This document shows, piece by piece, positions 3,164 to 21,872 of a stretch of DNA of 22,534 nucleotides. Below the pieces are notes generated by a model. The model was given only the letters and a program-made list of their open reading frames with translations. It did no database searches and was not told the DNA's origin. The DNA is from a virus. Location of the stretch: positions 1 to 22,534 of the IMG/VR virus record IMGVR_UViG_3300025890_000176; one strand, written 5' to 3'. Made by a program: the position numbers and the translations under genes. How positions within the stretch are numbered: the first letter of the stretch is position 1; each line of letters begins with the position of its first letter.

Positions 3164-4183
3164 ATGAATTATATCGATACAAAGTACATTTCCCTAATAT
3201 CCCCTCGTCTGAGGAACTTCAAGAGAAAGACTGATTATCTCTGGCAGTTCTCATGCCCGTACTGTGGTGACTCACAGAAGATACGGACTAAGGCAAGAGG
3301 GTTTATCTATAGAACAAAGAATGACCTTTTCTATAAATGTCACAACTGTTCTGTGGGTACAAATCTATCTAAATTGATAGAACATGTAGATTCAAATTTA
3401 CACAAGGAATATGTACTAGAACGGTACAAAGAAGGTCTTACTTCCAATGGTCGAGGGGATAAGACGCCTGGGGCAGGCATTAAGGCGCCTGACTTCAAGT
3501 TTAAGAAACCTGTGTTTCGTAAGTCACTGAAACTGGATTCGTTTTTGCAACTTGAAAAAAATCACCCTGCTATCAAATTTTTATCTGATAGATGCATCAG
3601 CGAAGAGCTCTGGAACGATATATATTTCTGTCCAAAGTTTTTTGAATATGTCAATGGACATGTTAAAGACAAGTTCCCCTCATTAAGTGGTGACCATCCA
3701 AGGATGGTAATTCCATTTAGGAAAGAGGATGGAGAGGTCTTTGCATTTCAAGGACGGGCATTTGGGGATGAACCCCAAAAATATATTACTATAATCTTGG
3801 ACAAAGAACATCCCAAGATTTTTGGATTAGATAGAGTTAACAAAGAACATACGGTGTATGTTGTTGAAGGCCCTATCGACAGTCTTTTTCTAAAGAACTG
3901 TATCGCAGTTGCACAGAGTGATTTGCGTGTTCCACAGTTCAAAGACAATGCGGTACTCGTTCCAGATAACGAACCTCGCAATGAACAGGTCTGTAAACAG
4001 ATTGAACGGTGTATCGATGAAGGATATAGTGTTTGCATCTGGCCACAGAGTATTTTAGAAAAAGATATAAACGACATGATTCTTTCTGGAAAGACTCCAG
4101 TAGAGATTCAAGAAATAATACATACTAACACCCACAAAGGATTGCAGGCAAAAACCGTTTTCAATTCTTGGAAGAAAATATAA
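3164..4183 (+). CDS. 61: DNA primase, T4 gp61 type
   Basis: 339 residues, close to T4 gp61. The N-terminal zinc-binding module has CPYC at 31-34 and CHNC at 59-62. The central TOPRIM-like core shows VYVVEGPIDS (231-240, catalytic Glu 235), LVPDNEPRN (265-273) and a downstream KDINDMI (300-306). It makes the RNA primers for lagging-strand synthesis at the phage fork with the gp41-type helicase, which is not in the window. There is no convincing ribosome-binding site in front of ATG 3164, and the predicted transcript start nearly coincides with the ATG, so translation may be leaderless or rely on upstream read-through. The 189-base frame overlapping its start is a shadow. Confidence 0.93.
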   Translation: MNYIDTKYISLISPRLRNFKRKTDYLWQFSCPYCGDSQKIRTKARGFIYRTKNDLFYKCHNCSVGTNLSKLIEHVDSNLHKEYVLERYKEGLTSNGRGDKTPGAGIKAPDFKFKKPVFRKSLKLDSFLQLEKNHPAIKFLSDRCISEELWNDIYFCPKFFEYVNGHVKDKFPSLSGDHPRMVIPFRKEDGEVFAFQGRAFGDEPQKYITIILDKEHPKIFGLDRVNKEHTVYVVEGPIDSLFLKNCIAVAQSDLRVPQFKDNAVLVPDNEPRNEQVCKQIERCIDEGYSVCIWPQSILEKDINDMILSGKTPVEIQEIIHTNTHKGLQAKTVFNSWKKI

Positions 4184-4204
4184 GCAAACAGGAGAACTAA
4201 AAAC

Positions 4205-6028
4205 ATGGCCCTTGAGAACGTAGTAACTTTCCCAAGTGCCGAGGGAACAACTGGTCTCGACCACCTCGGCATTCAAATAGACAGAACCAGAGACAAAGAT
4301 TTATCAGAACAAGCATACAAACTACTCAAGGATTATTATTGTAAAGATGAAGAACAATCACCCCAAGAAGCATACGCAAGAGCAGCAGTTGCTTATTGTC
4401 AAGGTGACTTAGAACTTGCACAAAGAATTTATGATGCAGTATCTAAAGGTTGGTTCATGTTTGCATCACCAGTATTATCAAACGCACCTAAGCCAGGCAA
4501 GAAAGCAAAGGCACTTCCTATTTCGTGCTTTCTAACTTATGTACCAGATTCACTTGAAGGACTAATCGACCATACTGCTGAGTTGCGTTGGTTATCAGTC
4601 AAAGGTGGTGGTGTTGGTGGACACTGGAATGATGTTCGTGCAATCTCTGATAAAGCACCAGGCCCTATGCCTTTTCTACACACGGTTGATGCAGACATGA
4701 CTGCTTATCGTCAAGGTAAAACTCGTAAGGGTTCTTATGCAGCATACATGGATATTTCACATCCAGACATTATTGAGTTTTTAAATATGCGTGTACCAAC
4801 AGGTGACGTAAATAGAAAGAACCTTAATCTACACCATGCAATCAATATCACTGATGATTTTATGAGAGCAGTAGAACGAGGTGAGATGTGGGACTTAAAA
4901 GACCCTAATGATGCAACTGTTAGAGAAACAATGCCTGCAAGAACTTTGTGGCAACAAATTCTAGAAGTAAGATATCGTACAGGTGAACCTTATCTTAATT
5001 TTATTGACACTGCGAATAGAGCATTACCACATACTATGAAAGCAAAAGGATTAAAGATACACGGTTCAAATCTATGTAACGAAATCCATCTTCCAACCTC
5101 AGAAGATAGAACTGCTGTTTGTTGTTTATCTTCATTAAACTTGGAGAAATATGATGAATGGAAAGAAACTTCTTTGGTTCGTGATCTTATACGTTTCTTG
5201 GACAATGTATTACAATTCTTCATTGATAACGCAGGCGATGAAATATCAAGAGCAAGATATTCCGCTACACAGGAACGTAGTTTGGGATTAGGTGCAATGG
5301 GGTGGCATTCACTGTTACACCAAAAAAGAATTGCATTTGATTCACACGAAGCAAGAGAACTTAATTGGGATGTTTTCAGAACAATTAAAGAAAAAGCAAA
5401 AGAAGAAACATTACAACTAGGACTTGAACGTGGTGAAGCACCAGATATGCAAGGTACAGGTAGACGTAATGCACATCTACTTGCAATTGCACCAAACGCT
5501 AATAGTTCTATTATTGTTTCTACTTCACCATCTATTGAACCATCAAAAGCAAATGCATATACACATCGTACTCGTGCTGGTTCACATTTAGTGAAGAATA
5601 AATATCTGGAACAAGAACTAAAGAAAGTAAAGAAAAATACTCAAGATGTTTGGTCAGATATTATCACTAATGGCGGTTCAGTCCAACACCTCGACTTCCT
5701 ATCAGAGAAAGTTAAAGAGGTATTCAAAACTGCAATCGAACTTGACCAAAATGTTCTGGTGGAACAAGCCGCAGACAGACAAGAGTTCTTGTGTCAAGGA
5801 CAATCACTAAATCTATTTTTCCCTGCTGGTGCAGATAAGAAAGAACTACATAAAGCACATTTCGCTGCATGGAAGTTGGGAACTAAAGGTCTATATTATC
5901 TAAGAACAGAAACATCACAACGTGCAGAAAACGTATCCCAAAAGGTTGCTCGTGATGCACTAAAAGATTTTGAATCTCAAGCCATAGAGGCACAATCACA
6001 AGAGGAGTGTGTAGCATGTCAAGGGTAG
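4205..6028 (+). CDS. nrdA: ribonucleotide reductase large subunit, class I, without ATP cone
   Basis: 607 residues, against about 760 for E. coli NrdA. It reduces ribonucleotides to deoxyribonucleotides for phage DNA synthesis. The active-site set is complete: Cys108 in PISC, Asn289-Leu-Cys291-Asn-Glu293 in the NLCNE motif, Cys306/307 in CCLSSLNL, and the radical-transfer pair Tyr564-Tyr565. A C-terminal Cys pair (CVAC, 602-605) can accept electrons from glutaredoxin. The protein starts almost directly at the catalytic domain; the N-terminal ATP-cone that gives dATP feedback inhibition is absent. A GGAG site precedes ATG 4205. The 3' end overlaps the next gene by 13 bases. Its reductant and partner subunit lie just downstream as one fused protein. 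Confidence 0.95.
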   Translation: MALENVVTFPSAEGTTGLDHLGIQIDRTRDKDLSEQAYKLLKDYYCKDEEQSPQEAYARAAVAYCQGDLELAQRIYDAVSKGWFMFASPVLSNAPKPGKKAKALPISCFLTYVPDSLEGLIDHTAELRWLSVKGGGVGGHWNDVRAISDKAPGPMPFLHTVDADMTAYRQGKTRKGSYAAYMDISHPDIIEFLNMRVPTGDVNRKNLNLHHAINITDDFMRAVERGEMWDLKDPNDATVRETMPARTLWQQILEVRYRTGEPYLNFIDTANRALPHTMKAKGLKIHGSNLCNEIHLPTSEDRTAVCCLSSLNLEKYDEWKETSLVRDLIRFLDNVLQFFIDNAGDEISRARYSATQERSLGLGAMGWHSLLHQKRIAFDSHEARELNWDVFRTIKEKAKEETLQLGLERGEAPDMQGTGRRNAHLLAIAPNANSSIIVSTSPSIEPSKANAYTHRTRAGSHLVKNKYLEQELKKVKKNTQDVWSDIITNGGSVQHLDFLSEKVKEVFKTAIELDQNVLVEQAADRQEFLCQGQSLNLFFPAGADKKELHKAHFAAWKLGTKGLYYLRTETSQRAENVSQKVARDALKDFESQAIEAQSQEECVACQG

Positions 6029-8349: not shown

Positions 8350-8559
8350 ATGTCTATAGGATTAGTGTTGAGACACACTTATCAAGAAACTTGTGAAATC
8401 TGTGAAAAGATTGCACATTTAGTAAGCAAGGTATGGGACGGTATTGTTGCACATGCTGAGATTGTTGGAACTGCGAGAGCAGCTGCAGAACTTTCTCGTC
8501 AAGGATACCATAAGGAAGCGAAAGCACTTATGTTAGAATTGGATAGGATGAAAAGATAA
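8350..8559 (+). CDS. small alpha-helical protein next to DUF1127
   Basis: 69 residues with a strong AAGGAG upstream. The C-terminal half (TARAAAELSRQGYHKEAKALMLEL, residues 41-64 in two helices) resembles short helical proteins of alphaproteobacteria that accompany DUF1127-type proteins; this is from memory and unverified. The N-terminal half contains a CEIC pair (15-18). It overlaps the DUF1127 gene by one base, so the two are translationally coupled. It was probably acquired from a host. Confidence 0.72.
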   Translation: MSIGLVLRHTYQETCEICEKIAHLVSKVWDGIVAHAEIVGTARAAAELSRQGYHKEAKALMLELDRMKR

Positions 8560-8777
8560 TGACTGTACTTACACAAACTTACTGTGCGTTTTGTGATGTT
8601 ATTTCTGATTTGTATAAAAACTTCAGAAAATCTATCACACCAAAAATGGACAAAAAAATCTACAGAGAACTTGCCAGTCTTACTGACAGGGAACTAAACG
8701 ACATGGGTATTTGTCGTGGTGATATTACAAATATTGCTATGGGTAAACATGTACCTAGAGATGGTTGGACAAAATAA
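8559..8777 (+). CDS. DUF1127 small protein
   Basis: 72 residues. The core YRELASLTDRELNDMGICRGDI (about 35-56, shown here in its motif order: RELAxLxDRELxDxGxxRxDI) is a clear DUF1127 signature. DUF1127 proteins are short, basic and most abundant in alphaproteobacteria, where members have been linked to RNA turnover and to phosphate and carbon metabolism. In phage DNA this is unusual and supports an alphaproteobacterial host. An extra N-terminal segment with two Cys (9 and 12) precedes the domain. The gene ends the small-protein group and is followed by a promoter/hairpin and a Na/Pi cotransporter homologue. Confidence 0.85.
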   Translation: MTVLTQTYCAFCDVISDLYKNFRKSITPKMDKKIYRELASLTDRELNDMGICRGDITNIAMGKHVPRDGWTK

Positions 8778-8791
8778 ATTATTAAACTTTT

Positions 8792-8820
8792 GTGACAAAG
8801 GGGTGTAACCCCCCTATATA
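8792..8820 (+). promoter_or_regulatory. possible sigma70 promoter with G/C hairpin in the spacer
   Basis: GTGACA at 8792-8797 and TATATA at 8815-8820 are 17 bases apart; an overlapping TATAAT at 8817-8822 would need 19. The spacer holds GGGG-TGTAA-CCCC (8800-8812), an inverted repeat that is striking in this AT-rich sequence. The element points at the Na/Pi gene. It is weaker than the other promoters of the window. Confidence 0.4.
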
Positions 8821-8830
8821 ATAGTGAACT

Positions 8831-8857
8831 AAAGGCGTAATGAGAGTTACGCCTTTT
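8831..8857 (+). terminator. intrinsic terminator or 5' stabilising hairpin
   Basis: AAAGGCGTAA (8831-8840) pairs over 10 bases with TTACGCCTTT (8847-8856) around a TGAGAG loop; TTTT follows the GC-rich part at 8854-8857. The flanking A- and T-runs would allow function on both strands. It lies only 18 bases before the Na/Pi start, and just after the predicted start point of the 8792 promoter, so it may act as a leaky terminator of the DUF1127 operon or as a hairpin on the transporter mRNA. Confidence 0.6.
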
Positions 8858-8874
8858 CTATTATGGAGAAAGCC

Positions 8875-9345
8875 ATGAAAGATAAACTCTGGAAGAAGGT
8901 AAGTAAAATGGATTTAGGAAACCCTGTAATCACCACCCTTGTGGGTCTGGTGATTTTTTATATTGGACTCAAAACATTCTCAGGCGGCATGAAGTCGATG
9001 GGAAATATGGAACATCTAACTTGGTTTATTGCAAATCCATATTATATGTTCTTTGGTGGAATCATTATGACATTGCTCTGGCAATCGTCTAGTCTATCCA
9101 CTACGGCAATCATCGCACTAGTCGCTTCTGGTGCAGTACCACTGCCTGCCGCAATCGCTTGTGTACTTGGTGCAAACATTGGAACAACTGGAACTATCTG
9201 GTTAGCAGGACTTCTGGTTTCAGATGGAATGCCGAAGGGTGACACTTTGCGAATAGCACTCGCACATACAGGGGTAAACCTATTCATGGCTGCAACCCTA
9301 CTACCTTTTGTACATCATATTGCAAGATTCTTAGGTAGATTCTAA
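8875..9345 (+). CDS. half-length Na+/phosphate cotransporter (NptA/PF02690-like)
   Basis: 156 residues from ATG 8875, chosen for GGAG at 8865-8868 (an in-frame ATG at 8863 overlaps that site). The signature motifs of Na/Pi cotransporters are present once: GGMKSMG (37-43), LLWQSSSLSTTAI (67-79, the QSSS ion/phosphate motif), GANIGTTGT (99-107) and the later helix HTGVNLFMA (131-139). About four to five hydrophobic segments cover residues 17-150. Bacterial NptA proteins carry two such repeats plus a PhoU-like tail; this protein is a single repeat, which would have to dimerise to form a transporter. It sits in the inner membrane by inference, possibly supporting phosphate uptake for DNA synthesis. 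Confidence 0.85.
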   Translation: MKDKLWKKVSKMDLGNPVITTLVGLVIFYIGLKTFSGGMKSMGNMEHLTWFIANPYYMFFGGIIMTLLWQSSSLSTTAIIALVASGAVPLPAAIACVLGANIGTTGTIWLAGLLVSDGMPKGDTLRIALAHTGVNLFMAATLLPFVHHIARFLGRF

Positions 9346-9371
9346 AAAATAAAATAAACTTTTTTACTAAG

Positions 9372-9397
9372 TCCCTGTTTTTACAGGGATTTTTTTT
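9372..9397 (+). terminator. intrinsic terminator after the Na/Pi gene
   Basis: TCCCTGT (9372-9378) and ACAGGGA (9383-9389) form a perfect 7-base stem with a TTTT loop, followed by eight T (9390-9397). It closes the accessory module, and a strong promoter starts 12 bases later. The terminator at 15893-15917 has nearly the same design. Confidence 0.92.
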
Positions 9398-12623: not shown

Positions 12624-12701
12624 CTGCCCGTAGCTCAGTTGGATTAGAGCAACGGTCTTCTAAACCGTAGGTCGCAAGTTCGAGTCTTGCCGGGCAGGCC
12701 A
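12624..12701 (+). tRNA. tRNA-Arg (anticodon TCT)
   Basis: Full cloverleaf: acceptor CTGCCCG (12624-12630) with CGGGCAG (12691-12697); D stem GCTC/GAGC; anticodon stem ACGGT/ACCGT with loop CTTCTAA, giving anticodon TCT; T stem GCAAG/CTTGC with loop TTCGAGT. The discriminator G and the CCA end are encoded (12698-12701). It reads AGA/AGG, and AGA is common in this phage's genes. It lies in the 106-base gap between the glycine-zipper gene and the bS21 gene, so it is likely cut out of an mRNA. Confidence 0.96.
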
Positions 12702-12715
12702 AATATGAGGATTTA

Positions 12716-12988
12716 ATGAGGTATAATAAATTTAATAAGTATAATAAGAAACGTAATTTTAAACAAGAAGAGCGTCCTGCTGGGATGACTGTGATTGTTC
12801 GTGATAATGATGTAAACAAAGCGTTAAGAGTTTTAAAGAAGAAACTCTTGCGTGATGGGTTCTTTCAAGAATTAAGAGATAGAACCTTTTATGAGTCCAA
12901 GGGAACTAAACGTAGAAAAGCAAAGGATGCTGCGACACGAAGATTCAAACGAAACTTGGAAAAACAAAAACTTGAACGTGGATATTAA
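12716..12988 (+). CDS. rpsU: phage-encoded ribosomal protein bS21
   Basis: 90 residues. Residues about 24-90 follow the bS21 pattern: a starting strand (MTVIVRDND), ALRVLKKKLLRDGFFQELRDR, then the conserved FYESKGTKRRKAKDAATRR (58-76) and a basic tail. bS21 binds the 30S platform next to the anti-SD end of 16S rRNA and assists initiation; phage copies are known from marine phages, including SAR11 phages. An unusual basic, Asn/Lys-rich extension (residues 1-23, MRYNKFNKYNKKRNF...) precedes the core. GAGG at 12707-12710 is the ribosome site. The gene directly follows tRNA-Arg, so two translation functions are adjacent. Confidence 0.92.
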   Translation: MRYNKFNKYNKKRNFKQEERPAGMTVIVRDNDVNKALRVLKKKLLRDGFFQELRDRTFYESKGTKRRKAKDAATRRFKRNLEKQKLERGY

Positions 12989-20863: not shown

Positions 20864-21174
20864 TGCCAACATTTAAATTTAGAAATACGGAAACAGGTGA
20901 AGAGTTTGAAGATTTCCTATCTAACAGTAGAAGAGAAGAACTTTTAAAAAAGAACCCACACATTAAACAGATGCCTTCAATGTTCTCTATCGCTGGTTCT
21001 ACTGGTGACAACATTGATGCCAAAACTGATGATGGTTGGAAAGAGGTTCTTGCAAAAGGGGCAGAGGCGCATCCCGATAGTCAATTAGGACAACGGTATG
21101 GTAAAAAATCTGCAAAACAAATTAAAACGGATGCGGTGTTAGCCAAACATCGACATAAATGGAGTACTAATTAA
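20863..21174 (+). CDS. FmdB-like protein without zinc cysteines
   Basis: 103 residues. The start MPTFKFRNTETGEEFEDF resembles the FmdB-type zinc-ribbon opening (MPxYxYxCxxCGxxFE), but the positions usually held by Cys are occupied by N/T and the protein has no Cys at all. Conserved continuation: KNPHIKQMPSMFSIAGSTGDN, DGWKEVLAKGAEAHPDS and a basic end KHRHKWSTN. This Cys-less form occurs upstream of phoH in other marine T4-like phages as far as I recall. Function unknown. Overlaps phoH by one base. Confidence 0.78.
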   Translation: MPTFKFRNTETGEEFEDFLSNSRREELLKKNPHIKQMPSMFSIAGSTGDNIDAKTDDGWKEVLAKGAEAHPDSQLGQRYGKKSAKQIKTDAVLAKHRHKWSTN

Positions 21175-21872
21175 TGGCTAAAGCAAAAGACATTAGAATT
21201 GATAATATGGTTTCTATTAAACCAATTACTGATAATCAAAAGAAAGCGTTTGCATCATATAAAGAAGGAAAGAATTTATTCCTCTATGGTGCGGCTGGTA
21301 CAGGTAAAACCTTTATATCATTATATAATGGATTACAGGATGTACTAAGAAATGAAACACCATATGATACAGTGTACATGGTTCGTAGTGCAGTACCAAC
21401 TCGTGAGATTGGTTTCTTGCCAGGCGATGAGGAAGATAAGACAGCACTATTCCAAGTACCTTATCAGAACATGGTTAAGTTTATGTTTGAACAACCGAAT
21501 GCAGCTGCATTCGCTGGATTGTACGAAAGACTTAAAAACCAAGGTTCACTGATGTTTCTTACTACGTCTTTCCTTAGAGGAATTACACTAGATAATGCAG
21601 TTATCATTGTGGATGAGTGTCAGAACTTGACCTTCCACGAATTGGATACTATCATTACTCGTGTTGGACAAGATTCAAAAATTATTTTCTGTGGAGATTT
21701 CTTTCAGACAGACTTGATGAAATCAAGTGATAAAGCAGGAATGGTTAACTTTATGAAAATCCTAGATGCAATGAAAGAATTTGATAATATCGAATTTACA
21801 ATCGGTGACATTGTACGTTCTGGTTTTGTGAAGGAGTATCTAATCAACAAAATCCGATTAGGAGTTGAATAA
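21174..21872 (+). CDS. phoH: PhoH-like P-loop ATPase
   Basis: 232 residues. Walker A GAAGTGKT (39-46), Walker B IIVDECQN (144-151) and the following GDFFQTD (174-180) give a PhoH/UvrD-like P-loop fold; other matches are MVRSAVPTREIGFLPGD (69-84) and FLTTSFLRGITLDNAV. PhoH is a common marker of marine phages; it is a predicted RNA helicase/ATPase linked to RNA metabolism and, in some hosts, to phosphate starvation. In this phage it lies about 12 kb from the Na/Pi gene. No Pho-box is evident upstream. Its stop overlaps the next start by one base. Confidence 0.94.
   Translation: MAKAKDIRIDNMVSIKPITDNQKKAFASYKEGKNLFLYGAAGTGKTFISLYNGLQDVLRNETPYDTVYMVRSAVPTREIGFLPGDEEDKTALFQVPYQNMVKFMFEQPNAAAFAGLYERLKNQGSLMFLTTSFLRGITLDNAVIIVDECQNLTFHELDTIITRVGQDSKIIFCGDFFQTDLMKSSDKAGMVNFMKILDAMKEFDNIEFTIGDIVRSGFVKEYLINKIRLGVE

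Follow-up and report, generated by a model that had tools for sequence, protein, structure and literature searches.

A half-size Na+/phosphate cotransporter-family gene is intact and strongly conserved on uncultivated marine phage contigs

A gene encoding a protein with a single repeat of the Na/Pi cotransporter family is present on hundreds of uncultivated marine phage contigs, where it is intact and strongly conserved. It was analyzed in a 22.5-kb virus record (IMGVR_UViG_3300025890_000176), a T4-like phage contig whose whole stretch of 22,534 nucleotides is referred to as the window. Two protein-guided scans of IMG/VR returned 498 and 534 stretches encoding relatives; the two sets overlap, and the counts refer to matching stretches and not to independent phages. 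PF02690 genes were already known in marine phages. What is new is that the product has a single repeat, that it is conserved over hundreds of contigs, and where it stands with respect to the repeats found in the cellular family. The gene is located in the window as follows.

8875..9345, plus strand: single-repeat Na/Pi-cotransporter-family gene encoding 156 amino acids (open reading frame list, PF02690 match, same end in 161 viral loci)

The start codon at 8875 is preceded by a GGAG Shine-Dalgarno sequence and relatives have homologous starts, while an alternative in-frame ATG upstream at 8863 would give 160 amino acids. The initial annotation had described one complete PF02690-type repeat, and counted from the ATG at 8875 its two motifs, QSSS (70-73) and GANIGTT (99-105), are exactly at the residues it gave. 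The Pfam search it had proposed to confirm a single repeat identified one PF02690 (Na_Pi_cotrans) domain, with an E value of 2.9e-16 and 60.2 bits against a gathering cut-off of 29.1. The NCBIfam model NF037997 (Na/Pi symporter, 294 positions) was matched at positions 124-257 only, which corresponds to one repeat. A phmmer search against solved structures detected zebrafish SLC34A2a (9z60), and the 156-aa protein could be aligned to each of its two repeats. The C-terminus lies about a dozen residues past the last LLPF. A second repeat in the same chain is absent, with only one PF02690 domain found in the window protein and in all of the 161 viral loci; Pfam gave no PhoU-like match in the 156-aa protein, and no PHROGs family matched it.

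Bacterial NptA (two PF02690 repeats, TIGR00704, NF037997) displays the same repeat fold with QSSS and GANIGTT, and the phage half can be aligned to both of its repeats. However, the NptA frames, 540-660 aa long, encode a second repeat, an additional terminal helix and in most cases a PhoU-like domain, while the phage protein has one repeat, 156 aa and no PhoU. In SLC34 (NaPi-II) each repeat holds the elements of the phage protein, and RU2 of human NaPi-IIa (335-489) is of the same size (PMC6325988). Unlike the phage single repeat, SLC34 proteins are eukaryotic and carry both repeats in one chain together with two further helices.

The end of the gene was the same in all 161 viral loci fetched from both scans. 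In 159 of them the stop was reached 122-123 residues after FSGGMK, and L122 and L123, which have FTGGMK instead, end at the same alignment column. The dN/dS ratios were about 0.01-0.07 for pairs with measurable divergence (0.015 for near pairs, median 0.07). A 37% identical homolog from another phage (L178/L182) also consists of one repeat with the same end; by our reading, its contig encodes clamp-loader-like, RecA-like and gp46/47-like proteins. L184 represents a further variant. Neither the window nor any of 20 other viral records (15-177 kb) contained a second PF02690 domain, and each of the 20 gave exactly one match. Few loci in the viral-contig scans, about a dozen, encoded two-repeat NptA. 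Chloroflexota was the one cellular group covered, and in 301 of its genomes the PF02690 frames were at least 355 aa long except one of 267 aa, and the only 165-aa frame belonged to a viral contig inside a MAG. The genes flanking the half-size gene vary between contigs, some of which carry genes of T4-like type for the tail sheath, the portal and RNR.

That the gene is a host NptA copy damaged by truncation, decay or misassembly, for which nothing but the small size speaks, is ruled out with near certainty by the constant length and the purifying selection (dN/dS well below 1), and the half-size homolog in another phage and the rarity of two-repeat NptA in viral contigs also stand against it. 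Assembly truncation or a frameshift, named in the initial annotation as what could undo the half size, is rejected: the 161 common ends and the dN/dS of 0.015-0.07 show that the half size is real and rule out chance.

Several other matches were also assessed. The GenBank phage records MT837808 (L084) and OR844989 (L085) encode full-length bacterial NptA with PhoU and are flagged as unverified. Their matching stretches adjoin ordinary bacterial genes and are probably host contamination; OR849875, judged from the match alone, agrees with them in both matched stretch and identity. The plasmid collection searched gave matches to Enterococcus sequences that were all partial, one of these sequences being annotated as a Na/Pi cotransporter. 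The sequence L083 (PAAV01000031.1), a match binned in a Chloroflexi MAG, is a viral contig 99% identical to L086 of IMG/VR. It carries an isocitrate lyase gene several genes 5' of the Na/Pi gene, and an IMP dehydrogenase/GMP reductase-like gene directly adjoins the Na/Pi gene (features at 716-1990 and 3979-4959 for these two entries).

Other neighbors were observed on single groups of contigs. A Nol-like carbamoyltransferase gene is located immediately 5' of the half-size gene in L049 (8452-9954) and L070 (8413-9954), identified by a PHROG match in L070 and by the same cluster in L049. In cluster 5, with eight contigs, the gene immediately 5' encodes a secreted small copper protein that resembles plastocyanin/pseudoazurin by eye; this neighbor was seen in L040, L051, L052, L055, L056, L067 and L068.

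The window displays about 93% DNA identity to the Melnitz methylophages (MZ577095-MZ577098) over 97% of its length. The host of these phages is the OM43 bacterium Methylophilales sp. H5P1. Pfam and PHROGs identified RNR subunits, a primase, a SegE-like endonuclease, an RNase H-like exonuclease and PhoH among the window genes. A tRNA-Arg(TCT) followed by a small protein annotated as ribosomal protein S21 in Melnitz is found at 12624-12988. The deposited Melnitz genomes differ from the window in having no half-size Na/Pi gene. The features around the gene are as follows.

8559..8777, plus strand: upstream DUF1127 protein (PF06568; Melnitz gene 46), marking the left border of the segment that Melnitz lacks
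8831..8856, plus strand: 5'-leader hairpin just 5' of the Shine-Dalgarno sequence, a terminator-like stem (fold z -3.9)
9369..9392, plus strand: intrinsic terminator 3' of the Na/Pi gene (terminator scan), with the same sequence after DUF1127 in Melnitz

In Melnitz the terminator directly follows the DUF1127 gene, while in the window the same terminator stands after the Na/Pi gene. Because DUF1127 of Melnitz directly precedes the shared terminator, the Na/Pi gene is an extra segment of about half a kilobase that was gained or lost at a defined place. The Na/Pi gene is a phage auxiliary metabolic gene, as it lies in a phage genome among phage genes (RNR, primase, exonuclease, PhoH), in synteny with Melnitz, and has a dN/dS below 0.1. 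A TATAAT-like hexamer (8817-8822), which the promoter scan did not list, precedes the leader hairpin. The fold of this hairpin is kept in relatives (L005, L035, L040, L055, L059, L060, L063) while the stem sequence differs. The hairpin carries a T-run and lies directly 5' of the Shine-Dalgarno sequence, in many cases preceded by an element like TATATAATA or TATATAAA; it could be the terminator of the upstream unit or stabilize the 5' end.

The PhoH gene of the same phage is located at 21174-21872, and mazG and phoH were given as the phosphate-related genes in the Melnitz paper (PMC9004378). The statement in the initial annotation that phosphate-uptake genes of phages are usually of the PstS or PhoH types is incomplete, as PF02690 genes with a proposed role in phosphate uptake had already been described in eight HMO-2011-type marine metagenomic phage genomes (PMC9038755). 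The text searched does not discuss their half size or half-repeat nature. These genes belong to another phage group and are likened to the phage half by family assignment.

An AlphaFold2 monomer model was obtained from 81 diverse rows, which include repeats of two-repeat proteins, and had a mean pLDDT of 88.7 and a pTM of 0.79; an earlier model built from close relatives only had a pLDDT of 60. The model contains helices at residues 2-10, 17-42, 46-53, 55-69, 72-84, 90-115 and 123-154, with the following correspondence to the DNA.

8923..9000, plus strand: TM1 of the repeat (residues 17-42 of 156; AlphaFold2 helix)
9037..9126, plus strand: predicted re-entrant hairpin region with QSSS (residues 55-84; QSSS 70-73 at 9082-9093)
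9142..9219, plus strand: predicted TM2 with GANIGTT (residues 90-115; GANIGTT 99-105 at 9169-9189)
9241..9336, plus strand: predicted TM3 with A-x-x-H-x-x-x-N...LLP (residues 123-154), aligning to the same helix in both SLC34A2a repeats

All 81 members of the alignment matched PF02690. Residues S71, S72, G99, N101, G103 and T104 were invariant among these sequences, and Q70 was conserved in at least 90%. With a profile built from the family and related sequences, positions 11-138 aligned to RU1 of SLC34A2a (79-214) and positions 53-137 to RU2 (393-481), and the last A-x-x-H-x-x-x-N helix was included in the alignment to both repeats. In NaPi-IIa, the repeats comprise residues 86-256 and 335-489, sodium and phosphate are bound between the HP and TM segments of the two repeats, and the Na3 site consists of Q417, S418, S419, T451 and T454 (PMC6325988). 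Mapped by eye, the equivalents in the phage protein are Q70, S71, S72, T104 and T107, which are invariant or nearly so, while the Na1-site residues of NaPi-IIa are apparently not conserved in the phage family, as judged from the alignment. Given the profile match to both SLC34A2a repeats and the kept Na3 equivalents, the protein is a complete repeat unit that carries the substrate-site residues of one side. The predicted monomer has all elements of a single NaPi-II repeat, among them the sodium/phosphate residues of HP-QSSS and GANIGTT. Fold searches with the model, for which a single repeat is a poor query, gave no significant match and no SLC34 entry among the matches listed; the best full-span transporter listed was NaDC3 (Z 4.9, rmsd 8.0, 151 aligned), which stood among unrelated entries.

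A phylogeny of the phage protein against the repeats of NptA had been proposed in the initial annotation. In this tree the half-size proteins formed one firm clade (99/96), placed between RU1 and RU2 of full-length NptA/SLC34. Its assignment to one side of the RU1/RU2 division is not firm: it branched weakly on the RU2 side (91/70), and grouping with RU1 was not rejected (AU p 0.43). Profile scores of the whole protein were 70 bits for RU2 versus 57 bits for RU1. The TM1 region before QSSS is slightly closer to RU2. The core around QSSS slightly favors RU1, at +8 bits compared with +42 or -43 for true members. The half-size sequences are thus specialized as neither repeat, as would be expected of a unit serving as both halves. 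The Chloroflexota genomes also encode Na/Pi proteins of 391-408 aa without PhoU (L195-L197), both repeats of which group with the corresponding SLC34 repeats; their charge pattern suggests an orientation opposite to that of PhoU-type NptA.

In 14 NptA-type proteins, K/R residues are more frequent ahead of RU2 than ahead of RU1, and the reverse is found in three SLC34-like proteins, as the positive-inside rule expects. The mean K+R of the N-flank was 2.7 in the half-size family, 2.6 in NptA RU2 and 0.6 in NptA RU1, a count that depends on start codons, which are uncertain in several half-size members. In the window protein, about seven K+R are inside and four outside by our own count from the model helices with three crossings. 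Dual-topology proteins usually have almost no positive-inside bias. The RU2-like N-flank predicts a fixed N-in orientation for all copies, and this prediction weakens an antiparallel homodimer or simple dual topology without excluding it.

We tentatively propose, at somewhat less than an even chance, that this auxiliary metabolic gene encodes a free-standing PF02690 repeat of which two copies pair as a Na+/Pi transporter aiding the phosphorus-starved host. Two copies would assemble in the host inner membrane, where their QSSS hairpins and GANIGTT segments would face each other and form one Na+/Pi site, like the one that full-length transporters have between RU1 and RU2. A phosphorus-starved host could then take up extra phosphate during infection for phage DNA synthesis, with the half-size gene acting beside PhoH of the same genome. 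Reproducing the architecture of the full-length proteins would require an inverted dimer, and this is the least certain step. The occurrence of one copy per record without a second half points to an inverted pair, as does the strongest constraint falling on the site motifs. Because the single copy, the site-centered constraint and the unspecialized sequence are set against the N-in charge, the inverted homodimer is the likeliest single mechanism but stays below one half. EmrE/SMR and Fluc are small membrane proteins working as antiparallel homodimers, according to the portions consulted of three reports (PMC9574504, PMC3755343, PMC4560821); their folds are unrelated to that of the phage half, which differs in its positive N-flank predicting one orientation. 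The initial annotation thus holds for one complete repeat with substrate-site motifs that is carried by a phage and derives from neither truncation, frameshift nor an assembly cut, while the antiparallel homodimer of the phage half stays a plausible proposal.

The RU2-like traits, namely the fixed N-in charge signature, the weak branching and the higher RU2 profile score, would also fit a hetero-complex, in which the phage unit pairs with a host RU1-like unit (a full-length Na/Pi protein or a half) and builds or re-tunes a transporter. We consider this improbable, since many phages that differ in gene neighborhood, and probably in host, carry this same protein, the QSSS core leans to RU1 and not RU2, and no half-size partner was found in the phage records searched. 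Also improbable, and placed after the hetero-complex, is a modulator that inserts into a host Na/Pi or other transporter with a dominant-negative or activating effect, or alters phosphate sensing or the entry of rival phages. A small single-repeat phage membrane protein with one predicted orientation would suit such a role, but the strongest constraint falls on substrate-site motifs that a pure inhibitor does not need. We know of no PF02690 protein that works as a parallel oligomer. A homo-oligomer with all subunits N-in, binding or conducting phosphate/sodium in a channel-like or uniporter-like manner, would agree with the charge signature, the single copy and the constant size, but is quite improbable as the site of this fold forms between inverted repeats (PMC6325988).

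The tree is compatible both with a relic that has always stood alone and with a half of derived origin, and preservation of the pre-duplication ancestor is one of these two readings. A working Na+/phosphate transporter of two identical inverted repeats, that is, a living state from before the NptA/SLC34 duplication spread through the ocean by phages, is a rather unlikely but possible outcome. Inverted-repeat transporters are thought to descend from single units that dimerized. In the literature and data searched, no lone unit of the NaPi-II/DASS-type fold is documented. The conserved family of exactly one repeat makes the idea of a single-unit origin testable in the laboratory. It also represents a widespread phosphate-related phage gene that was missed by PHROGs v4 and GenBank phage genomes, and it is of relevance for phosphorus cycling during infection of small marine bacteria.
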